DNA of 64,000 nt from Melastoma dodecandrum (lineage: Eukaryota > Streptophyta > Magnoliopsida > Myrtales > Melastomataceae). The position numbers were made by a program, and so were the translations under genes. The notes beneath the pieces were generated by a model that saw nothing but the letters and a program-made list of their open reading frames with translations, made no database searches and was not told the origin of the DNA. Below, in pieces: positions 36,466 to 53,256 of the stretch; within the stretch, counting starts at the first letter, position 1; each line of letters begins with the position of its first letter. The stretch lies in NCBI GenBank assembly GCA_029817715.1, contig JARUPY010000606.1, forward strand, positions 7,626,001-7,690,000. The letters are read 5' to 3'.

Positions 36466-38478
36466 TCAGAACTGGAACTGCATCTCGGGGGCATACCCAA
36501 GAACCTCAAGGTGAGCCGCCATGGCCTTGTTCATCGGAGGTGGACCACATCTCAGGATCTATAAGATGATTTGACAGAAATTAACAATGGTAGCTAGACA
36601 TTGACGCAGGACGAGTGCGCGGAAACATAGGTGATTACACGAGTGTTATATGCTAACCTGAATGCCGGGTCCTGGAGCAGGGCAGTGACTCTCGATCATC
36701 TCCTTGGACACGAATCCTACCCCGCCATTCCAAACCTCTGGGGGCTGTGAGGAATGAAAAACTCGGTAATTAAAGAGACGGTGGAAGGAGGAGGAGGAGA
36801 AAAAAGACATAATATGGCAGCACATACCTGGTTTAAGACGTAGTAGATTTTGAAGCGGTCAGGATAACCGGAAGCTAAGCCATCCAGTTCTTCCTGTTGT
36901 TAAGTTAAACAAGCGAATTAGAAAGGAGTAACAAATTCATGTCCCGTCTGGTTCAGTGACATGCTGCATAATGGGCATGGAAGATCACACGGTCTTCTTA
37001 CTTTCAAAAGAATGTCATCTTGGGTAACATTGGCATATATAAGGTGGACCTTGGTTTTATCTTTGGGATTCTCCAATATTGCCCTGGCAACCTATGATAG
37101 CGGCGAAGGATGGCAACATAAGTAAACTCTCGCTTAGGGAAAGAACCTTCCATTATTTATTGATTTTAGACTTGGGAAACAAAGTAGGTCACCTGAAACA
37201 TGGGGGTGATGCCAGAGCCACCAGCAAGCATTCCAAAAGCTCTTACTTGGCCTGGTTGGTACCTAAAACGTCCCTACACAAGAAAAGTCAATAGTTTACT
37301 CAAAGGCTAGGTGGGATTGAGACATGATTGATTGCCATTTCAATTGGATGGAAGAAGAAAAATCTACCACTATTTCTCGGCCAAAATGTTCCTGAGGTAA
37401 TAGAGTACCTTTGGTCCCTTTACAGCAAGGTAATCACCCACACGCAGTTCACGGAAATGGTGAGACATCCTTCCTTGTGGATACATCTAATTGAGGACAA
37501 CAAAAATGTGAGAGAATAATGGTAAACACTATTGGCCTACACGAAGGCGATGCATGGAAAATTGGCTTCGAACGGATACCTTTATAACGAGCTCAAAGTA
37601 CCCAACGTCAGAGTCCAAGGTGGTCGGAGTGTATGGCTTTATAATCTCCTCCCCTTGGCCATCTTTGCCCCTGTTAGGACACGAAGCTAGTTTAAGGAAG
37701 CAGCCTTGGATGAAGCACATATGAAGGCTTCCACATACGTAAATCTTATCTACCGAAATCCAAAACCAGTCTGCTTTAAGTGAGAATTGTGCCAACAGGT
37801 CAATCGACATTGTCCAAATAGGTCACATCGTTGGGATGCACAGAAAAGTGACGATTTACGCAATCAGCAGCATTCAAAGAGGACAATAATACGAACTTGC
37901 AACTTATGTGCTGTCCAATTGGAAGGCCCAGCACCAAAGTAGGAGTGGGTAGCTCAAACGTGAACTTGGCAACATTATGGCTTAGCTGCGTGCGCTTGAC
38001 GAGTTTAAAGTTCTTGAAGTTTTCTGGATCCAAGCAGCCTGCATGAGGTACACAAATAACACACCAGATTAAGCTGCTTATCATTGCCCGGACATCAAAC
38101 ATCCCGATAGCATATTCATCAAAACCCAAACTCCCTCAGGAGATAAACGGCAAAACAAATCTCATCGTATCACATCAAAGTTTTGTCATGCCATCCTATC
38201 AAAGCCCAAACATCAGCCACTGAGGGTTACAAGGAATCATGAACAGCCCACGTCCCGGAGAAATCCTCCACACCTCCAAGATCACCCGCCAGCTCCCCGA
38301 AACACAACCCAATCACTAGAACCTCCAAAGGGATGGAACAGAACGTGGGAATGGATAAAAAGATGGGACCTTTGGACTTGTTGGAAGACTTGAGGAAGGC
38401 GACGGCAGCTACGACGGCGAGGACGGCGACGGCCACCCCCAATACGATCTGGAAATCCGGCGACTGCAACAACTCCAT
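36466..38478 (-). CDS. CBR1: NADH-cytochrome b5 reductase 1
   Basis: Nine exons (38370-38478, 37897-38038, 37580-37670, 37409-37486, 37193-37273, 37002-37091, 36828-36893, 36658-36744, 36466-36558) give 278 residues, close to the usual 281. An N-terminal membrane helix (residues about 9-29, [20 protein letters not shown]) anchors it to the ER. The FAD domain contains [11 protein letters not shown]. The [20 protein letters not shown] segment follows. The NADH domain contains [14 protein letters not shown] and the C-terminal [14 protein letters not shown]. It transfers electrons from NADH to cytochrome b5 for fatty-acid desaturation and related reactions. All intron phases fit. The start is the first ATG before the anchor. 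Confidence 0.96.
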
Positions 38479-38970: not shown

Positions 38971-39367
38971 TCAAATCCTGTGATGAGGAGGAGGGGGAGG
39001 AGGAAGATGACGAGGATTAGGACGAGGCTGGGGATAATCATTCTCCGACACCTTCTCCCTCTCCTCGAAGAACGACTCTTCCCCTTCCAAAAACTCTACC
39101 ACCGCTCCTGATCCATCCTCCTAGAGAAACACCAACCAGACAGATGTTATATTTACTACGTATTCAAGACTTCTTACAGCTAAAAGCCAATGAATGATAA
39201 ACAAGAAAACCAAACCTAACCTGAAAGGAGTCGACGGTGGTGGTGATGGGTTCTATATTTTCCACTGCCTCCACACTCCCCGCATCGGTAGCCAAAGCAC
39301 GGTCGGTCGAGGCCGACAAGATGAGAAGAGCTGAGACCCCCAGAACCGCCAAACCTATGCTTCTCAT
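38971..39367 (-). CDS. PSY-type sulfated-tyrosine peptide precursor
   Basis: Two exons (39221-39367 and 38971-39120, 147-bp and 150-bp) join at phase 0 to a 98-residue protein. It begins MRSIGLAVLGVSALLILSAS, a clear signal peptide. A variable acidic middle follows (EFLEGEESFFEE), then a C-terminal NDYPQPRPNPRHLPPPPP. That segment fits DY-x2-P-x2-N-x2-H-x-P, the PSY1/RaxX peptide consensus (PSY1 has Asp-Tyr, Pro5, Asn8, Pro9, basic10, His11 and Pro13 at the same positions). PSY peptides are Tyr-sulfated by TPST, released from a secreted precursor and perceived by PSY receptor kinases that balance growth and stress. The Asp-Tyr pair gives the sulfation site. Odd points are Leu rather than Asp before the last Pro, and a Pro/His-rich end. 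The assignment rests on motif and architecture; no homologue search was possible. Confidence 0.72.
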
Positions 39368-40460
39368 TTCTTCTTCTTCTTCTTCTTCTTCTTTTCTTGA
39401 CGAATGTGATTTTTATATATGAAAAGATCATCTGCCTTAAAATTACCATAAGATGGTTTTATCGTGATAATCCATGATTCCCCCGCCAACCCATTATTTA
39501 TTGCCTTTTTCTCCGAACCACAACACAATATTATACTAATGATCTTCTTCATTAATTCATTCCTAATAACGTCGGAAACAGAATCACATATTACTATTTC
39601 AGACGTAATTAATTAAATTAGTTTTACTAAGTAATCTGGGCCGAAAGAGGAGGCAGCCGGGTGGGTTGGGGGCTACTTTCTTCCCATAATAGGGCTTTTC
39701 TACGATACGTTTTCCAGAAAGGAAGAAAAAGAAGAAGTTACTCCACATACATAATGAGAGGGCGGTCGGTGAAGTGCCGTTGAGATCTGCAGCAGGCAAA
39801 ATCGGGTGGTGGTGGTGGTGGTAATAAAAAATAAAATGGTAACGGAACAGCAGTGTTTGTTCATGTCAGGTCATTTTTATCATGAATGATGATGATGATG
39901 ATTTACTGTACGATACGATCATTTTTTAAAATATATATCTTTTGCTGAGTGGGATGGGAGTCACACACCCTTTTTTTTTTTAACCGGCCAACGTTCGTTT
40001 TCCTCGTGAGTCTCCATTGCTAAAAACACAAGGAAGATATCAAAACGACAGACAGAGGAGCACCACCACCACCCGCATGAAAAATCCTTTTGGTTCGTCT
40101 TCTTCGTCGAAACAACATCCTCGTGACTCAACTGAACCCACCGCACCCATTCCACCTCTCCCCCTCATGAAATGTCCTACTTTAATTTAACCCAGCCAAC
40201 CGTTGCTGATTCCCCCGGACCAAATCCCAGCCGTCGGCACCAGACACGATCTGTCCCCTCCACGTGATCCCATCCGTCCACGTGTCACCCCGCTCCCCCC
40301 ACCACCTCCAACCCCCATTTTAAAACCCCCCGACTTCCACTTCCACTTCCACTTCCAGTTCTACAACCGACGATTACAATTCCCCTCCTCTCTCGTCGTT
40401 CAATTTCTCAAGCAGAAGAGACCGTCGCTGCTCCAGTTCGGACCACACGATCGGGTTTTA
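39368..40460. other. Divergent promoter region between PSY-type and MCTP genes
   Basis: About 1.1 kb with TTC/GAA repeats just upstream of the PSY start (39369-39392), a GGT run near 39807-39820 and GAT repeats near 39886-39900. No gene was seen; it holds both leaders. The MCTP leader is long and pyrimidine-rich. Confidence 0.45.
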
Positions 40461-43457
40461 ATGGCAGAGGCTTGCCCCGGGAAGCTCGTGGTTGAAGTCT
40501 GTAATGCGAAGAATCTAATGCCCAAGGATGGCCAGGGGACTGCCAGCGCCTACGCCGTCGTCGACTTTGACGGCCAGCGGCGTAGGACCAAGACTAAGTC
40601 CCGGGATCTCAACCCCCAATGGGACGAGGTGCTCGAGTTCTCGATCCATGGCGTGGAGTCCCTGGCCTCTCAGGTGCTTGAGCTGAACCTTTACAATGAC
40701 AAGAAGACGGGGAAGAAGGGCACGTTCTTGGGGAAGGTGAAGATTGCCGGGAGCGGATTCGCGAAGTCGGGTTCCGAGACTCTGGTTTACTATCCGCTGG
40801 AGAAGAGGAGCGTGTTTTCTCAGATCAAGGGGGAGATCGGGCTTAAGGTTTATTACGTGGACGTGGACCCACCTGCTGCCGCGGTTGCGGAGGAGAAGAA
40901 GGAGCCGGAAGCAGAAGGAGAAAAGCCGCCTCCGGATGGGGAGGCAAAGGCGGCTGAGGAAGCGAAGGGGGAGAAAGCCGTTGAGGAGAAGAAAGAGGAG
41001 GAGAAGTCTACGGAGGAGGAGAAGAAAGAAGAAGAGAAGCCGAGCCCCCCTGCTGAGGAAGCGAAGCCCAAGGAAGCTCCGGTGGAGCTGCCGGCTGAGG
41101 TCGAGGAAGGTCCAGTCCAATCTCCGCAGGAGTCGGCGGAACCATCCAAAATGGTGGCCGATAAGTCCAAGGTCTCTGTGAGCGATCTCGATCTCCGCTT
41201 GTCGTCGAACGATCGTGGCCGGGCGTCATACGATTTGGTGGACAGGATGACATTCCTCTTCGTTCGCGTGGTCAAATCGAAGCGTGGGGACGATGCCTCG
41301 AAGCTTCCGGCATATGCCAAGCTAACGATCGGCACGCACGTGGTGAAAACCAGGACGTGCGTCGACAACAAGGAGTGGGACCAGGTATTCGCGTTCAACA
41401 AGGAGGGACTGAACTCGACCAACCTGGAAGTGTCCGTTTGGGTGGAGGAGAAAAAGGAGAACGAGGAAGCCGCCGTCGAGAAATGTCTGGGGTCGGTCTC
41501 CTTCGACCTGCTGGAGATCCCGAAGCGAGTCCCACCCGACAGTCCTCTGGCCCCACAGTGGTACACCCTGGAGTCCGAGACTTCGCCGGGGAACGACGTC
41601 ATGCTCGCCACCTGGCTGGGATCCCAGGCGGACGAGGCGTTCCAGGAGGCGTGGCAGTCGGATTCCGGCGGGATGATACAGCAGACTCGAGCGAAGGTCT
41701 ACCTGGCACCGAAGCTGTGGTACTTGCGCCTAACGGTTATTCAAACCCAGGATTTGCAGCTAGGTTCGGGACCCGAACCTAAAGTTCAAAGTTCCTCCCC
41801 TCGCCCTGAGCTTTATGTCAAAGGTCAGCTTGGACCTCAGCTCTTCAAGACGAGCCGAACTTCGGCCGGGCCCAGGTCATCCGGCTCGGCGAATCCTTCG
41901 TGGAATGAGGATCTCGTGTTCGTTGCAGCTGAGCCGTTCGAGCCATTTCTTGTGATCACCGTCGAGGAGGCTAAGACTGGGAATCTGATCGGGCAGGCCA
42001 AAGTACACGTGCCTAGCATCGAGAAGCGGATAGACGGCAGCTCGGATCCGCCTTCGAGATGGTTCAACTTGGCCGGGGATGAGAATAAGCCGTACGCGGG
42101 AAGGATTCATGTGAGAGTTTGTTTGGAAGGTGGGTACCACGTGCTGGACGAGGCTGCTCATGTGACCAGTGATGTGCGTGCCTCGGCGAAGCAGCTGGCT
42201 GCGCCACCAATCGGCTTGCTGGAAGTTGGCATACGAGGGGCCACCAACCTGTTGCCAGTGAAGACGAAGGATGGGATGCGTGGCACCGTCGATGCCTATG
42301 TTGTTGCAAAGTACGGTCCGAAATGGGTCCGCACACGAACCATTTTGGATCGGTTCAACCCGAGATGGAACGAGCAGCATGCTTGGGATGTCTATGACCC
42401 GTGCACTGTGCTTACGATCGGAGTGTTCGATAACGGGAGGTACAAGCGGGAAGAATCGGGGAAACCAGGGATGGATATACGCGTCGGGAAATTACGGATC
42501 CGATTATCCACTCTCGATACAAACCGGGTTTACGTCAATACATACTCGCTGGTTGCTCTGTATCCAGGCGGGGCTAAGAAGATGGGCGAGATCGAGATCG
42601 CGGTTAGATTCTCGTGCTCGTCATGGCTCAGCTTAATCCAAGCCTACTCTGCGCCGCTGCTACCGAAGATGCACTACATGCGCCCGTTTGGTCCTGCCCA
42701 ACAAGAAATCCTCAGCCATACTGCAATGCGTATAGTGACTGCCCGGCTTGCCCGGTCAGAACCTCCGTTGGGGCAGGAGGTGGTGCAGTACATGTTGGAC
42801 TCGGACTCACACATCTGGAGCGTCAGAAGGAGCAAGGCGAACTGGTTCCGCATCATTGGTTGCCTCTCACGCACCGGATCCTTCCTCCGATTCCTCGACG
42901 GGATATGCACGTGGGCCCACCCTCCAACGACAGTCCTAGCACACGTGCTCTGGGCTGCAGCAGTGCTCTGTCCGCACCTGATCCTGCCGACCATCTTCAT
43001 GTACGTGTTCCTGGTGCTGGTCCTCAGATTCCGGTACCGTCGCGGTTCCGCCCCAGGCGGAATTGATCCGCGGCTGTCGTGCGTGGAAGCAGCAAGTAAG
43101 GACGAGGTCGATGAGGAGTTTGACGGTTTCCCGACGGGACGTGCCCCAGACGTGGTCCAAATAAGGTACGACAGGCTGAGGGCGCTTGCGGGGAGGGCGC
43201 AGGCAGTGATGGGGGACGTGGCGGGGCAGGGGGAGAGGCTGGAGGCGCTGCTAAACTGGAGGGATCCAAGGGCCACAGGGATATTGGTGGTGCTGTGCTT
43301 GATGGCGTCGCTGGTGTTCTACGTCGTCCAGTTCAAGGTTATAGTGATGGCTGGGGGCTTCTACTTCTTGAGGCACCCGAGGTTCCGCAACGACATGCCG
43401 TCGGTTCCCGTCAACTTCTTCAGGCGATTACCGTCGCTCTCTGATCAGATCTTGTAA
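40461..43457 (+). CDS. QKY: Multiple C2 domain and transmembrane protein, QUIRKY-like (MCTP)
   Basis: A single-exon 998-residue protein, start ATG 40461 (MAEACPGKLV); the frame is open upstream without supporting similarity. Four C2 domains are visible: C2A about 8-132 (KLVVEVCNAKNLMPKDGQGT), C2B from about 263 (LFVRVVKSKRGDD), C2C from about 419 (LWYLRLTVIQTQDLQLG) and C2D from about 583 (GLLEVGIRGATNLLPVKTKD). Between C2A and C2B, residues about 138-225 form a Lys/Glu/Pro-rich linker characteristic of QKY-type proteins. The phosphoribosyltransferase C-terminal region holds two hydrophobic hairpins (about 820-866 and 937-967) and ends VNFFRRLPSLSDQIL. QKY sits at plasmodesmata and ER-plasma-membrane contacts, tethers membranes through its C2 domains and works with the STRUBBELIG kinase in tissue patterning. 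Intronless structure is usual for this family. Confidence 0.95.
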   Translation: MAEACPGKLVVEVCNAKNLMPKDGQGTASAYAVVDFDGQRRRTKTKSRDLNPQWDEVLEFSIHGVESLASQVLELNLYNDKKTGKKGTFLGKVKIAGSGFAKSGSETLVYYPLEKRSVFSQIKGEIGLKVYYVDVDPPAAAVAEEKKEPEAEGEKPPPDGEAKAAEEAKGEKAVEEKKEEEKSTEEEKKEEEKPSPPAEEAKPKEAPVELPAEVEEGPVQSPQESAEPSKMVADKSKVSVSDLDLRLSSNDRGRASYDLVDRMTFLFVRVVKSKRGDDASKLPAYAKLTIGTHVVKTRTCVDNKEWDQVFAFNKEGLNSTNLEVSVWVEEKKENEEAAVEKCLGSVSFDLLEIPKRVPPDSPLAPQWYTLESETSPGNDVMLATWLGSQADEAFQEAWQSDSGGMIQQTRAKVYLAPKLWYLRLTVIQTQDLQLGSGPEPKVQSSSPRPELYVKGQLGPQLFKTSRTSAGPRSSGSANPSWNEDLVFVAAEPFEPFLVITVEEAKTGNLIGQAKVHVPSIEKRIDGSSDPPSRWFNLAGDENKPYAGRIHVRVCLEGGYHVLDEAAHVTSDVRASAKQLAAPPIGLLEVGIRGATNLLPVKTKDGMRGTVDAYVVAKYGPKWVRTRTILDRFNPRWNEQHAWDVYDPCTVLTIGVFDNGRYKREESGKPGMDIRVGKLRIRLSTLDTNRVYVNTYSLVALYPGGAKKMGEIEIAVRFSCSSWLSLIQAYSAPLLPKMHYMRPFGPAQQEILSHTAMRIVTARLARSEPPLGQEVVQYMLDSDSHIWSVRRSKANWFRIIGCLSRTGSFLRFLDGICTWAHPPTTVLAHVLWAAAVLCPHLILPTIFMYVFLVLVLRFRYRRGSAPGGIDPRLSCVEAASKDEVDEEFDGFPTGRAPDVVQIRYDRLRALAGRAQAVMGDVAGQGERLEALLNWRDPRATGILVVLCLMASLVFYVVQFKVIVMAGGFYFLRHPRFRNDMPSVPVNFFRRLPSLSDQIL

Positions 43458-46098: not shown

Positions 46099-48007
46099 AT
46101 GAACGAGATCGAAGAAGTCATTGAAAAGGCCAAAGAGGTCAATGAAGAGACGAAGGTCAATGAAGAGACGAAGGTCAATGAAGAGACGAAGGTCAATGAA
46201 GAGACTGCAGAGGTCAACAAGACGCCAGAGGGGTCGTCGTCTTCTTCGACGTCCTACCGTAGCGCAAGGGCTGTCCGTCTTCCGGTAAGTTGTGGCGCCC
46301 TTTCTCTTAGTTTGCCTGACGGCTACTGAAAAATCAAAGAGTTTCGTGTCTTTTGCGCTGCATCTCGTGCCGCCGCATTTCCGTGAAGTGAGGAACAAGA
46401 ATACTCCCCGAGAAAGAAAGTCGTTCTCCTTTTAATGTGATTGTTCTGTGTCGTTGCATATAACCTGTGCTGGAATTTGAGAATGCGAGAGTTGATATCC
46501 TGTCCCTGCTATCTTGATCTTCGTTTCCCTTAGATGTTCGGCAATTTTCGGTTCGTTTTCTTGGATCGGGGCGATACTAATTGATTGCATTCCTCTGCTG
46601 ATATCAAGAGTCCACCACCGATACTTCGGGACCCGATCTTTCAGACAGGCAAGGAGGCCCGGCGAATCACCCGCAGGCTTTTTGAGATACTCTTCTACTT
46701 TCTTGTCTACACGGGAGTGATGCTAGGGGCTTATTTCATTACCCGAGGATACACTTCTGCCAAGTCTCGCCACTTTAACCCTTCGGGTTGGTACCCTCTG
46801 ATAATGACCGCGATAGGTTGTGGTGGCTTCATGGCGTTGGCGTGGCACTACGCAGTCCACTGGATTCCGGAAAGAGCCGTGTTGACTGTTTTCTGGCTCA
46901 GTCCCCTGATGACCTCTGTGGTTGGAATCCTGCTCATAACGGCGAAATCTTCCTTGGGTTTAGGAATCGGCATCGTGTTGACGGTTGTAGGCTTGGCACA
47001 AGCACTCTACTACTGCTGGGTGGCCTCTCGGTTGAGTTACGCCATGAAGATCGTGTCCGCTGCCACGGCTGTCCTCCCGGATCTCACTACGGCTGCAATA
47101 CTGCTTGGACTGGCAACTGCAGGCCTGCACTCGACTATACTGGGATTTGCTATCGCGGGTTGTGCAGCTATGGGATCTGGCTGGGACGCCCTCGCAATCT
47201 TCGGCTTTGTATTGAGCCTGCTGTGGACCCAGCACACCATCAAGAACATCGTGCAATCCATGATTGCCCGCATCAAGTATAATAATTTCGCGAAAGTTCA
47301 GAGCATCCCTTCTCGGTGGGCACTCGCAGATACTCTCAAGTACTTGGTAGGTAGCATCGCCCTTGGATCGATCCTGGTCCCTGTATTTACAGTACTTCGA
47401 GGTTCTGCTCTGGCCCTGCAGTCTGCATTCGGTGGATCAGACATGTTCATGTACTCATTTGGGTGGTGCTACTACCACGTCACTTCGACACTACCAATCC
47501 ACGGGAACCGTTACGGGTTCGTTTTCTCTGGGGGATATAACAGAGGGTTCTTGCGAGGATCAAGAAATGCATGGCAGTTACTCGAACGATCTGAGATCAA
47601 TGAACTTGTCGAGTCAGATCTTACGGGTTCATTCTGCTTCTTCTCTGGCATGACGGGAGGGGCAGCGTCTGCCATAGTCGTTGGATGGTGGATGCGAGCC
47701 ACTCACCAGGATCACGTCCCACAAGTTGTGACGCTTGCTCTATTGATCGGCTATCTGATGGTAAACAAGGTCTCTTCCCTTTTCCTTTTCCTACCTCGCT
47801 CAATTTATTGTGACATGCGTGATCGGTACTGTTCCTCAGTGTCAAATTGGAACAGTGTGGGCTCAAGCTTCTGTTTCCGCATACTACATAGCTTATGCAG
47901 AGAATCCGGATAGAACCCAGTTTGAGACAATCCGTGATCGCCTTCTGGAAATGCGTAGAGGCCAGGGGTTGCGTCGAGAACTGGAGTTGAGCGATCGGCA
48001 GACATAA
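46099..48007 (+). CDS. Choline transporter-like (CTL/PNS1) membrane protein
   Basis: Three exons (46099-46284, 46609-47769, 47840-48007) give 504 residues. The acidic N-terminus has an 18-bp tandem repeat encoding VNEETK units. Many membrane helices follow (ILFYFLVYTGVMLGAYFI, YPLIMTAIGCGGFMALAW, LSPLMTSVVGILLI, LGIGIVLTVVGLAQALYYC and more). Family landmarks are SFGWCYYHVTSTLPIHGNRY, GFLRGSRNAWQLLERSE, SFCFFSGMTGGAASAIVVGW and, in the last exon, TVWAQASVSAYYIAYAENPD, matching the SLC44/CTL conserved C-terminal region. Plant CTL1 affects choline homeostasis and membrane trafficking at the trans-Golgi network and cell plate, but this family member may differ. The exon-2 acceptor is pyrimidine-poor; an alternative at 46645 would drop 12 residues. 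Confidence 0.88.
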
Positions 48008-50743: not shown

Positions 50744-52443
50744 TCACCCCGTCCATCTCCAGAAAGCGTACAGTATAATGATCGTCGAGATCATGCCGGC
50801 ATACTTGATCAACTTGTCAACGCGGTGCCGCCTTTCTATCAGTTTTAGGACCGAATTCGAGAGGCCGACGTTGTTCAGAACATCCAACGCTTTCCTCTGT
50901 GCTTTCTGAAAAACAACCAAAACAGAGAAAACATTCCAGCGCACGAGGTTAGATGTCCACTGTCCTGAGATTGGCAACACCAACCACAGCGATGAACAGG
51001 CAACGTATAAAAACGTGTCACAAGCCATGGAGACAGAAACCAAACTACAGGAATTCTGCTAAGTGTAGCTCCAAGAAGTCACATTAATGCATTAAAATGC
51101 CAGCAACAATGTCCAGAGGGTCTAAACTATTAACTTCCTATTCCACATGGATGACGACAAGAGGGGCCAACTCGACAGCTAAATCCAGGATCAATCTCTG
51201 CCTCGCTGTTTTAATCCCGTTTGAAATAACATAAGATAGCCTAAATGGACATGACCACGGTAGGGTATAAAACTGGTGGGGTTCACGATCAAACATATCT
51301 GATTGGAGCAAAGCGGGAGATATGTTGAATAAAACGTGTGTAGGAGATAACCCAAAATGACTTCTGGAGAAAACCGGTACTCATTCAAAGACCAAAACGT
51401 TGCGGTGAATAAAATAATTAGCCGTATTCCTCGCCAATTATCAATGTAGACCAAATACATTACAAGAAATTGGGGATACCTTTAATCGTTCTCTTTGCTC
51501 GGAATACTTTGAAAGGATAGCCACTCCGGTGGCAAAGGATTCTTCCAGCATCCTGGACGAGTTGCGAGCAGACTGCATTGCTTGCGCTTCATCATCAAAT
51601 ATCCTCAAAACATGGGCAGAGTCCCCGTTCTAGAACACAAAAATACAGCACATAAACATTTTCAAGCAGGATATTCTCGTGGGACAATAAAAGGGAAAGC
51701 TTCGAAGGGAAAGAGAAACTATCGCATACAGCTCTTCCAAGCAGTTCGGCTCTCTCCTTAGCTTCCATCATTCGCCTTTGATTTCTCAAAAAGTACTTAT
51801 CCAAGCTCTCCTTTAATGACTCGGCTTCCTCAGCGACTTGCTCCACTTTCCTGATTCACAAGCAGTAACAAAAAAACCGATTTTATATGGATTCAAATGT
51901 ATAAACCAGTGACTCAAACATCTGGATTCTAAAAAAGCCAGATCCCTGTCATCAGCAACCAGTAAATCGGCGCATGGCTCACCACGGTCGCGAAGAAAGT
52001 TACAACAGACAGCCAAAGCACCAAACACCCAGAACCCTTTCGATCCTACTGACACTAAACAATCAGCCGATTCCCTGCTACGATTATTCCACCATCCATA
52101 TATCACATGGAATCACCACAGACCTAGGAAATCCGCAATTCAGCAGACCAGGCCACCAAATCACTACGATTTACCTCCGCCAGAGATCGCGCTGGGACTT
52201 TGCGCCGATCGAGCGCCAAAGCCGGTCCATCTCCACGCAGAACGACTGCACCTGGATGATGTCCCTCTTGATCGACGTAGACAACTCCGGCGAGTCCAAT
52301 CCACCGCCGGTGGCCGCCGTGGTGGTGGACTCTAGCCTCTCCAACCTCTCCAGCGCATCCCTCGTCCGGAGCAGCAGCCGCCGGGAGCTCTGGTAGATCT
52401 CCGACAAAGTCCCGCCACTCGGTACTCCTTCCATCGCGGCCAT
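50744..52443 (-). CDS. MEMB11: Membrin, Golgi Qb-SNARE
   Basis: Four exons (52175-52443, 51730-51850, 51480-51629, 50744-50905) give 233 residues, the family length. The start was set at ATG 52443 (MAAMEGVPSG). It closely follows Arabidopsis MEMB11/12 as I remember it: SLSEIYQSS-like N-terminus, VEMDRLWRSIGAKSQRDLWR, KYFLRNQRRMMEAKERAELL, SNARE motif (SARNSSRMLEESFATGVAIL) and AQRKALDVLNNVGLSNSVLK. A single C-terminal anchor YAGMISTIIILYAFWRW ends the protein. Membrin is the Qb-SNARE for ER-Golgi fusion with SEC22, SYP31 and BET11. All intron phases fit. Confidence 0.96.
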
Positions 52444-53256
52444 CGGAAGCAATTTCTCCTCCGGCCTCCCGATCGTTTCAGTTGCCGTTTGGCGATTGGA
52501 GCCGACCGATCGGGGTTTCCTGCCTCCTCGTTGTTCGTCACGCGTTTCCCGATTATTAGTTATCAGACGGTTGCGGGTTCGATTTTGTTAAGCAAAAAGC
52601 TTCTTCCATCCATCATCCGCAGGTCCAATTGAGTCGGGTCGGGGAAGGCCCGACCCGAATTGAACTTTGCGTAATACCCCCGTTCAAAAAAGGCCGAGGG
52701 TTTTTGTCTTCTTGTTCCGCCATAAAAAACGCTCCATTTTCCTTCCCGGCAAACTGCCTTCGCGTTGTTCTTCCGCCGAAATGAGGTAAAAGCCTCGTCA
52801 TCGATGATCGGCTCCGTTTGTTTTCGTGCGTGTGATCCGTCCTCAGCTTCTCTTGAGTCGATCATTGCGGTGTCGATTTCTTGTTCTGCTGTGGCCGGAG
52901 TTTGGATTTCCTGTTTGAGTAATGGCTCTAGGGATGCTGATCGTGACGCTTTGTTGCGCGGTAGAGCGACTGGTTTTTAGTTTTTGGTCACGAAGAGTGC
53001 TGATCGTATGAGGATGCTTGGTAAAACCGAGATGCCGACACTTACACGTTGAGTTCTTGTTGCACGAGTAGTTGCCTGGTAGGGTTTGATGCCGAAAGAA
53101 CGAGAAATAGGTGCGTTGGAGTTGTCTCGGAGCACTGTGAGAGTGTCCCATCCAGCGTGATCGTGTCATTATTGGAATAGGACTGTGCTTTCTCGATTGC
53201 GTGCTGTTGGTTTTTTGTTAGAAGTTTGATCACGGTTTGGTTTGTGTATACGTCAG

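Follow-up and report, generated by a model that had tools for sequence, protein, structure and literature searches.

A two-exon gene of Melastoma dodecandrum very probably encodes a PSY-family signalling-peptide precursor

The stretch of Melastoma dodecandrum DNA analysed here, a window of 64,000 nucleotides, contains a small minus-strand gene composed of two exons (Table 1). Translation of the joined exons yields a protein of 98 residues with the C-terminus SENDYPQPRPNPRHLPPPPPPHHRI. A sequence-only reading of the window had proposed a gene of exactly this kind, namely a two-exon gene for a secreted-type protein of 98 residues with a C-terminal peptide motif, and this is confirmed by the exon translation, the hydrophobic N-terminus of the product and a counterpart in Melastoma candidum. 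The same reading had pointed to the interval 39120-39221 as the one that RNA reads should span. A splice junction is indeed located there, but these two positions still belong to the exons on either side, and the intron itself extends from 39220 to 39121.

The splice sites of the gene consist of the donor CAG/GTTAGG and the acceptor TTTCTCTAG/GAG (the slash marks the exon boundary), and the intron has a GC content of 0.34, compared with 0.56 and 0.53 in the exons. Reading exon 1 without splicing leads to an in-frame stop. A scan of the locus returned 64 frame-keeping GT/AG joins including the chosen one; the motif is kept by every one of the 40 joins examined out of these 64, and among the same 40 the 100-bp intron has, in our judgement, the most consensus-like pair of splice sites. 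The alignment with the M. candidum protein shows no gap at the join of the two exons. Codon usage favours the coding frame in exon 1 (0.26, versus 0.10 or less in the other five frames) and barely does so in exon 2, the one that encodes the domain (0.09, versus -0.01 and -0.15 in the other sense frames and up to 0.07 in the antisense frames). The GAA repeat region in front of the ATG is probably a short 5' leader.

Table 1. Features of the PSY-type gene and of selected neighbours, in window coordinates
Feature	Position	Strand	Remarks
TATA-like element	39410..39419	-	starts 52 nt upstream of the ATG
GAA triplet repeat	39368..39398	-	immediately upstream of the ATG, between the TATA-like box and the ATG; TRF
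Exon 1	39221..39367	-	147 nt; residues 1-49; contains the start codon, a secretory-type N-terminus at residues 1-26 and the first part of the pro-region
Intron	39121..39220	-	100 bp, GT-AG, phase 0, T-rich
Exon 2	38971..39120	-	150 nt including TGA; acidic pro-region (residues 50-76), PSY-type domain and Pro-rich tail
PSY-type domain DYPQPRPNPRHLP	39001..39039	-	residues 77-89; fits DYXXXX[AP]NXXHXP
Degenerate GAG/CTC triplet repeat	38985..39027	.	TRF; 70% matches; covers motif codons 5-13 and the poly-Pro block
Pro/His tail PPPPPPHHRI	38974..39003	-	first residue is the domain's final Pro; sequence
FAD-binding oxidoreductase exon	37803-38135	-	downstream of the PSY-type gene; Pfam
MCTP-type C2/PRT_C protein	40461-43457	+	single open frame without interruption, with PRT_C and four C2 stretches; Pfam, searched with 40461-43454
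Choline-transporter-like protein	46585-47910	+	one long open frame; Pfam

Nine of the ten open frames sent to Pfam matched a family. The MCTP-type gene is divergent from the PSY-type gene, at a distance of about 1.1 kb, and the oxidoreductase exon on the other side belongs to a protein that we take to be cytochrome b5 reductase-like. The choline-transporter-like frame has an EamA match below the cut-off in its N-terminal third. Further Pfam-matched neighbours in the window are GrpE, COG4, methionine synthase, MYB and an EF-hand protein, together with a bZIP neighbour whose match is below the cut-off; the minus-strand frame 52174-52587 gave no Pfam match. A candidate for synteny is a region of Arabidopsis chromosome 5 with GrpE, cytochrome b5 reductase, MetE and MCTP16, which, judging by the gene codes, is presumably free of the listed AtPSY1-9 genes.

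The 98-residue protein has the general organization of a small secreted precursor. Its best 12-residue hydropathy window (2.86) is found at residues 6-17, no window above 0.45 starts after residue 26, and the hydrophobic N-terminus ends with ALA at residues 24-26; an N-terminal signal peptide is predicted from hydropathy alone. The middle of the protein is acidic, with 15 Asp or Glu versus 2 Lys or Arg in residues 27-75, and 10 versus 2 in the portion of the pro-region encoded by exon 2 (residues 50-76). The precursor contains a single Tyr and no Cys, and a D-Y site is kept. The pro-region (residues 27-76) contains no RxxL/RxLx site, a pattern present in the precursor only as RALA at the end of the signal peptide and as RHLP inside the motif. 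A Pfam search with the protein returned no family, and a PDB search gave 36 weak matches, mostly of PTP1B to residues 58-98, with a best E value of 0.25. A PDB search with a PSY profile gave no match.

PSY peptides are defined by the motif DYXXXX[AP]NXXHXP in the second half of a precursor of 60-200 residues, according to Tost et al. (PMC7913133), who further list a BLAST match of the precursor to the PSY1 precursor at E ≤20, and a study in wheat applies the identical motif (PMC11641228). The sequence DYPQPRPNPRHLP satisfies this pattern at every position, and a length of 98 residues with the motif at residues 77-89 agrees with the limits of the definition. The narrower pattern given in the sequence-only reading, DY-x2-P-x2-N-x2-H-x-P, occurs once in the six frames of the window, at the PSY-type gene and with no second copy, and in 0 of 400 first-order Markov windows. 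We also built a matrix from 12 published PSY 13-mers (AtPSY1-9 and TaPSY4, 5 and 8; the shorter TaPSY7 was left out). Without the DY, DYPQPRPNPRHLP scores 23.3 bits on this matrix, within the range of 22.5-29.2 bits covered by the 12 members in leave-one-out scoring. The agreement with the definition, the matrix score, the hydrophobic N-terminus and the acidic pro-region uphold the earlier assignment to the PSY type, and the gene very probably encodes a PSY-family signalling-peptide precursor with an AtPSY7-like domain.

A comparison with the known peptides places the domain inside the family. It is identical to the 12 published PSY domains at 6-9 of 13 positions, while these share 5-12 positions among themselves (mean 7.5). 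The nearest published domain is that of AtPSY7 (At3g49305; DYPEPGPNPIHDP), with 9 of 13 positions and the same proline layout, DYPxPxPNPxHxP; the two differ by Q/E, R/G, R/I and L/D (here/PSY7). The domain of AtPSY9 (At3g49300; DYPEPGPDPKHDP) is identical at 8 of 13 positions, and so is that of AtPSY8 (At3g47510), which shares with the gene described here the RHLP sequence and the DYP start, but has Ala-Asn-Asn at the core in place of Pro-Asn-Pro. The PSY7 and PSY9 precursors comprise 78 and 86 residues; set against them, the Pro/His tail is a feature of the present gene, in a comparison made at the level of the domain. A poly-Pro end of AtPSY7 that had been guessed from a primer was dropped because its frame cannot be fixed. 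The protein had been described as an unusual member of the family on account of its Pro at the Ala position and its Leu before the last Pro, a view that does not survive this comparison: Pro at that position is part of the definition and is found in AtPSY5, 7 and 9, the HLP sequence occurs in AtPSY8, and the identities are typical. Because its variable positions fall within the known variation, the domain hardly changes the picture of the PSY family, and the gene probably represents one more ordinary member of an established group of hormones, not something new. RaxX of Xanthomonas is described in the literature as having the same kind of 13-residue domain. RaxX, however, is a bacterial mimic, whereas the present gene is spliced and has plant genes as neighbours, among them that of the MCTP-type C2 protein with its plant PRT_C domain, and membership in RaxX was rejected on this basis.

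When 5.8 billion proteins were searched at E values up to 1, 14 candidates came up, of which one is a relative, the hypothetical protein MLD38_020089 of M. candidum. This protein has 98 residues, is 95% identical and carries an identical PSY domain; it differs by substitutions only (G10V, P40D, I41T, G54A and R97W). Residues 55-96 are free of differences, which under uniform placement would occur by chance in about 6% of cases according to a hand estimate and is not significant. The motif is identical in the sole relative recovered, and no homologue outside Melastoma was found in this search. A protein search seeded with the published PSY domains returned two candidates, of which only MLD38_020089 passed, and no Arabidopsis PSY; a second search seeded in this way returned four candidates, none of them at E values up to 10, and missed both MLD38_020089 and the Arabidopsis PSYs. 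Since the seeded searches missed the Arabidopsis PSYs, words of which formed part of the seeds, and the second one MLD38_020089 as well, these results provide no evidence for the gene being confined to Melastoma. The annotation of M. candidum is described as combining RNA-seq, homology and ab initio prediction (PMC9911893), and we infer that MLD38_020089 forms part of it. The gene had been expected to escape annotation easily, yet the M. candidum annotation includes it, albeit without a name. Melastoma was not named in work on PSY or other plant signalling peptides among the literature matches listed.

The most serious alternative arises from the composition of the motif. Nine of its 13 codons lie inside a degenerate CCT triplet tract, and if all 18 codons between motif position 5 and the end of the protein are counted, CCT itself accounts for 8 and triplets one base away from it for 6 (14/18). 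A secreted acidic and proline-rich protein with a decaying CCT microsatellite at its C-terminus could therefore spell the Asn and His of a PSY motif by chance, and the recovery of relatives from Melastoma only, in the search at E values up to 1, is in keeping with such an origin. Against this, only 544 of 500,000 trials that resampled the codon positions of the tract, with the DY granted, reproduced the published pattern, as did 472 of 200,000 tail shuffles with both the DY and the tail composition granted. The whole pattern appeared in 0 of 200,000 exon-2 Markov sequences, and the observed PSY matrix score was reached or exceeded by 1 of 200,000 tail shuffles with the DY granted; the published AtPSY7 peptide, moreover, has the same layout of prolines. 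Because resampling and shuffling rarely produce the pattern, and a single shuffle in 200,000 reaches the observed score, a chance resemblance is unlikely. A related proposal accepts a working signal of independent plant origin: a secreted protein rich in proline would have contained a CCT repeat, out of which the PSY domain arose or was rebuilt in the Melastomataceae. We regard this as quite improbable; if true, it would show how PSY-like hormones and pathogen mimics of them can emerge from low-complexity sequence.

Other small peptide families and a loss of function were considered as well. The DYPQP start is common to the motif and to AtRGF6 in a published table, and would suit a precursor of the RGF/GLV/CLEL type. 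A matrix of 10 RGF-type 13-mers (RGF4, GLV8 and GLV9, whose peptides are not 13-mers, were left out) nevertheless gives 4.9 bits in an ungapped fit, versus 11.1-27.5 bits for its own members in leave-one-out scoring, and 37,852 of 200,000 tail shuffles match or beat this value. The motif also ends in H-L-P and lacks the H-N or N-N end at positions 12-13, and an RGF-type identity is hardly credible. A CIF/TWS1 identity was rejected, with a score of 1.2 on a matrix of five CIF/TWS1 sequences (leave-one-out, 10.5-14.1 for the four CIFs and -8.1 for TWS1). A pseudogene or an over-predicted small ORF, which is compatible with PSY ancestry, would agree with the weak codon-usage signal in exon 2, but the frame is intact across a GT-AG intron and accompanied by a TATA-like element, and the annotated M. 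candidum counterpart is likewise 98 residues long and differs by substitutions only. We consider a non-functional locus very improbable.

Taking the gene as a PSY-type precursor, a route for the peptide can be proposed by analogy with the family, in which TPST sulfates the Tyr of PSY peptides and subtilases are proposed to release them, and in which the receptors PSYR1-3 bind these peptides, with the result that stress signalling is repressed and growth allowed (PMC10519359, PMC11534595, PMC7913133). The signal peptide would be removed in the ER, and the acidic stretch before END-Y would present the only tyrosine of the precursor to TPST for sulfation; TPST is said to prefer acidic surroundings (PMC13074997), and an acidic run before D-Y would thus suit it. 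An SBT6.1 site (RxxL/RxLx) is reported for PSY1-5 and an SBT3.8 site for PSY1-8 (PMC7913133). With its pro-region devoid of the former and its D-Y kept, the precursor is in this regard similar to PSY6-8. Release of the peptide at D-Y may be the work of a subtilase, perhaps a phytaspase of the SBT3.8 kind with specificity for Asp. Once secreted, this peptide would be anticipated to bind PSYR-type LRR receptor kinases and to repress their stress signalling, permitting growth.

In plants, PSY peptides take part in balancing growth against stress responses. The precursors are short proteins that may go without a name, as in the M. candidum annotation. The naming of a PSY-type gene supplies the annotation of Melastoma with a testable hormone gene. 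The six-proline block of the tail is a candidate for proline hydroxylation and arabinosylation, and some of the C-terminal prolines of the peptide may be modified in this way. The GAG/CTC repeat that underlies this region is also a possible source of variation in the length of the peptide tail between related species.
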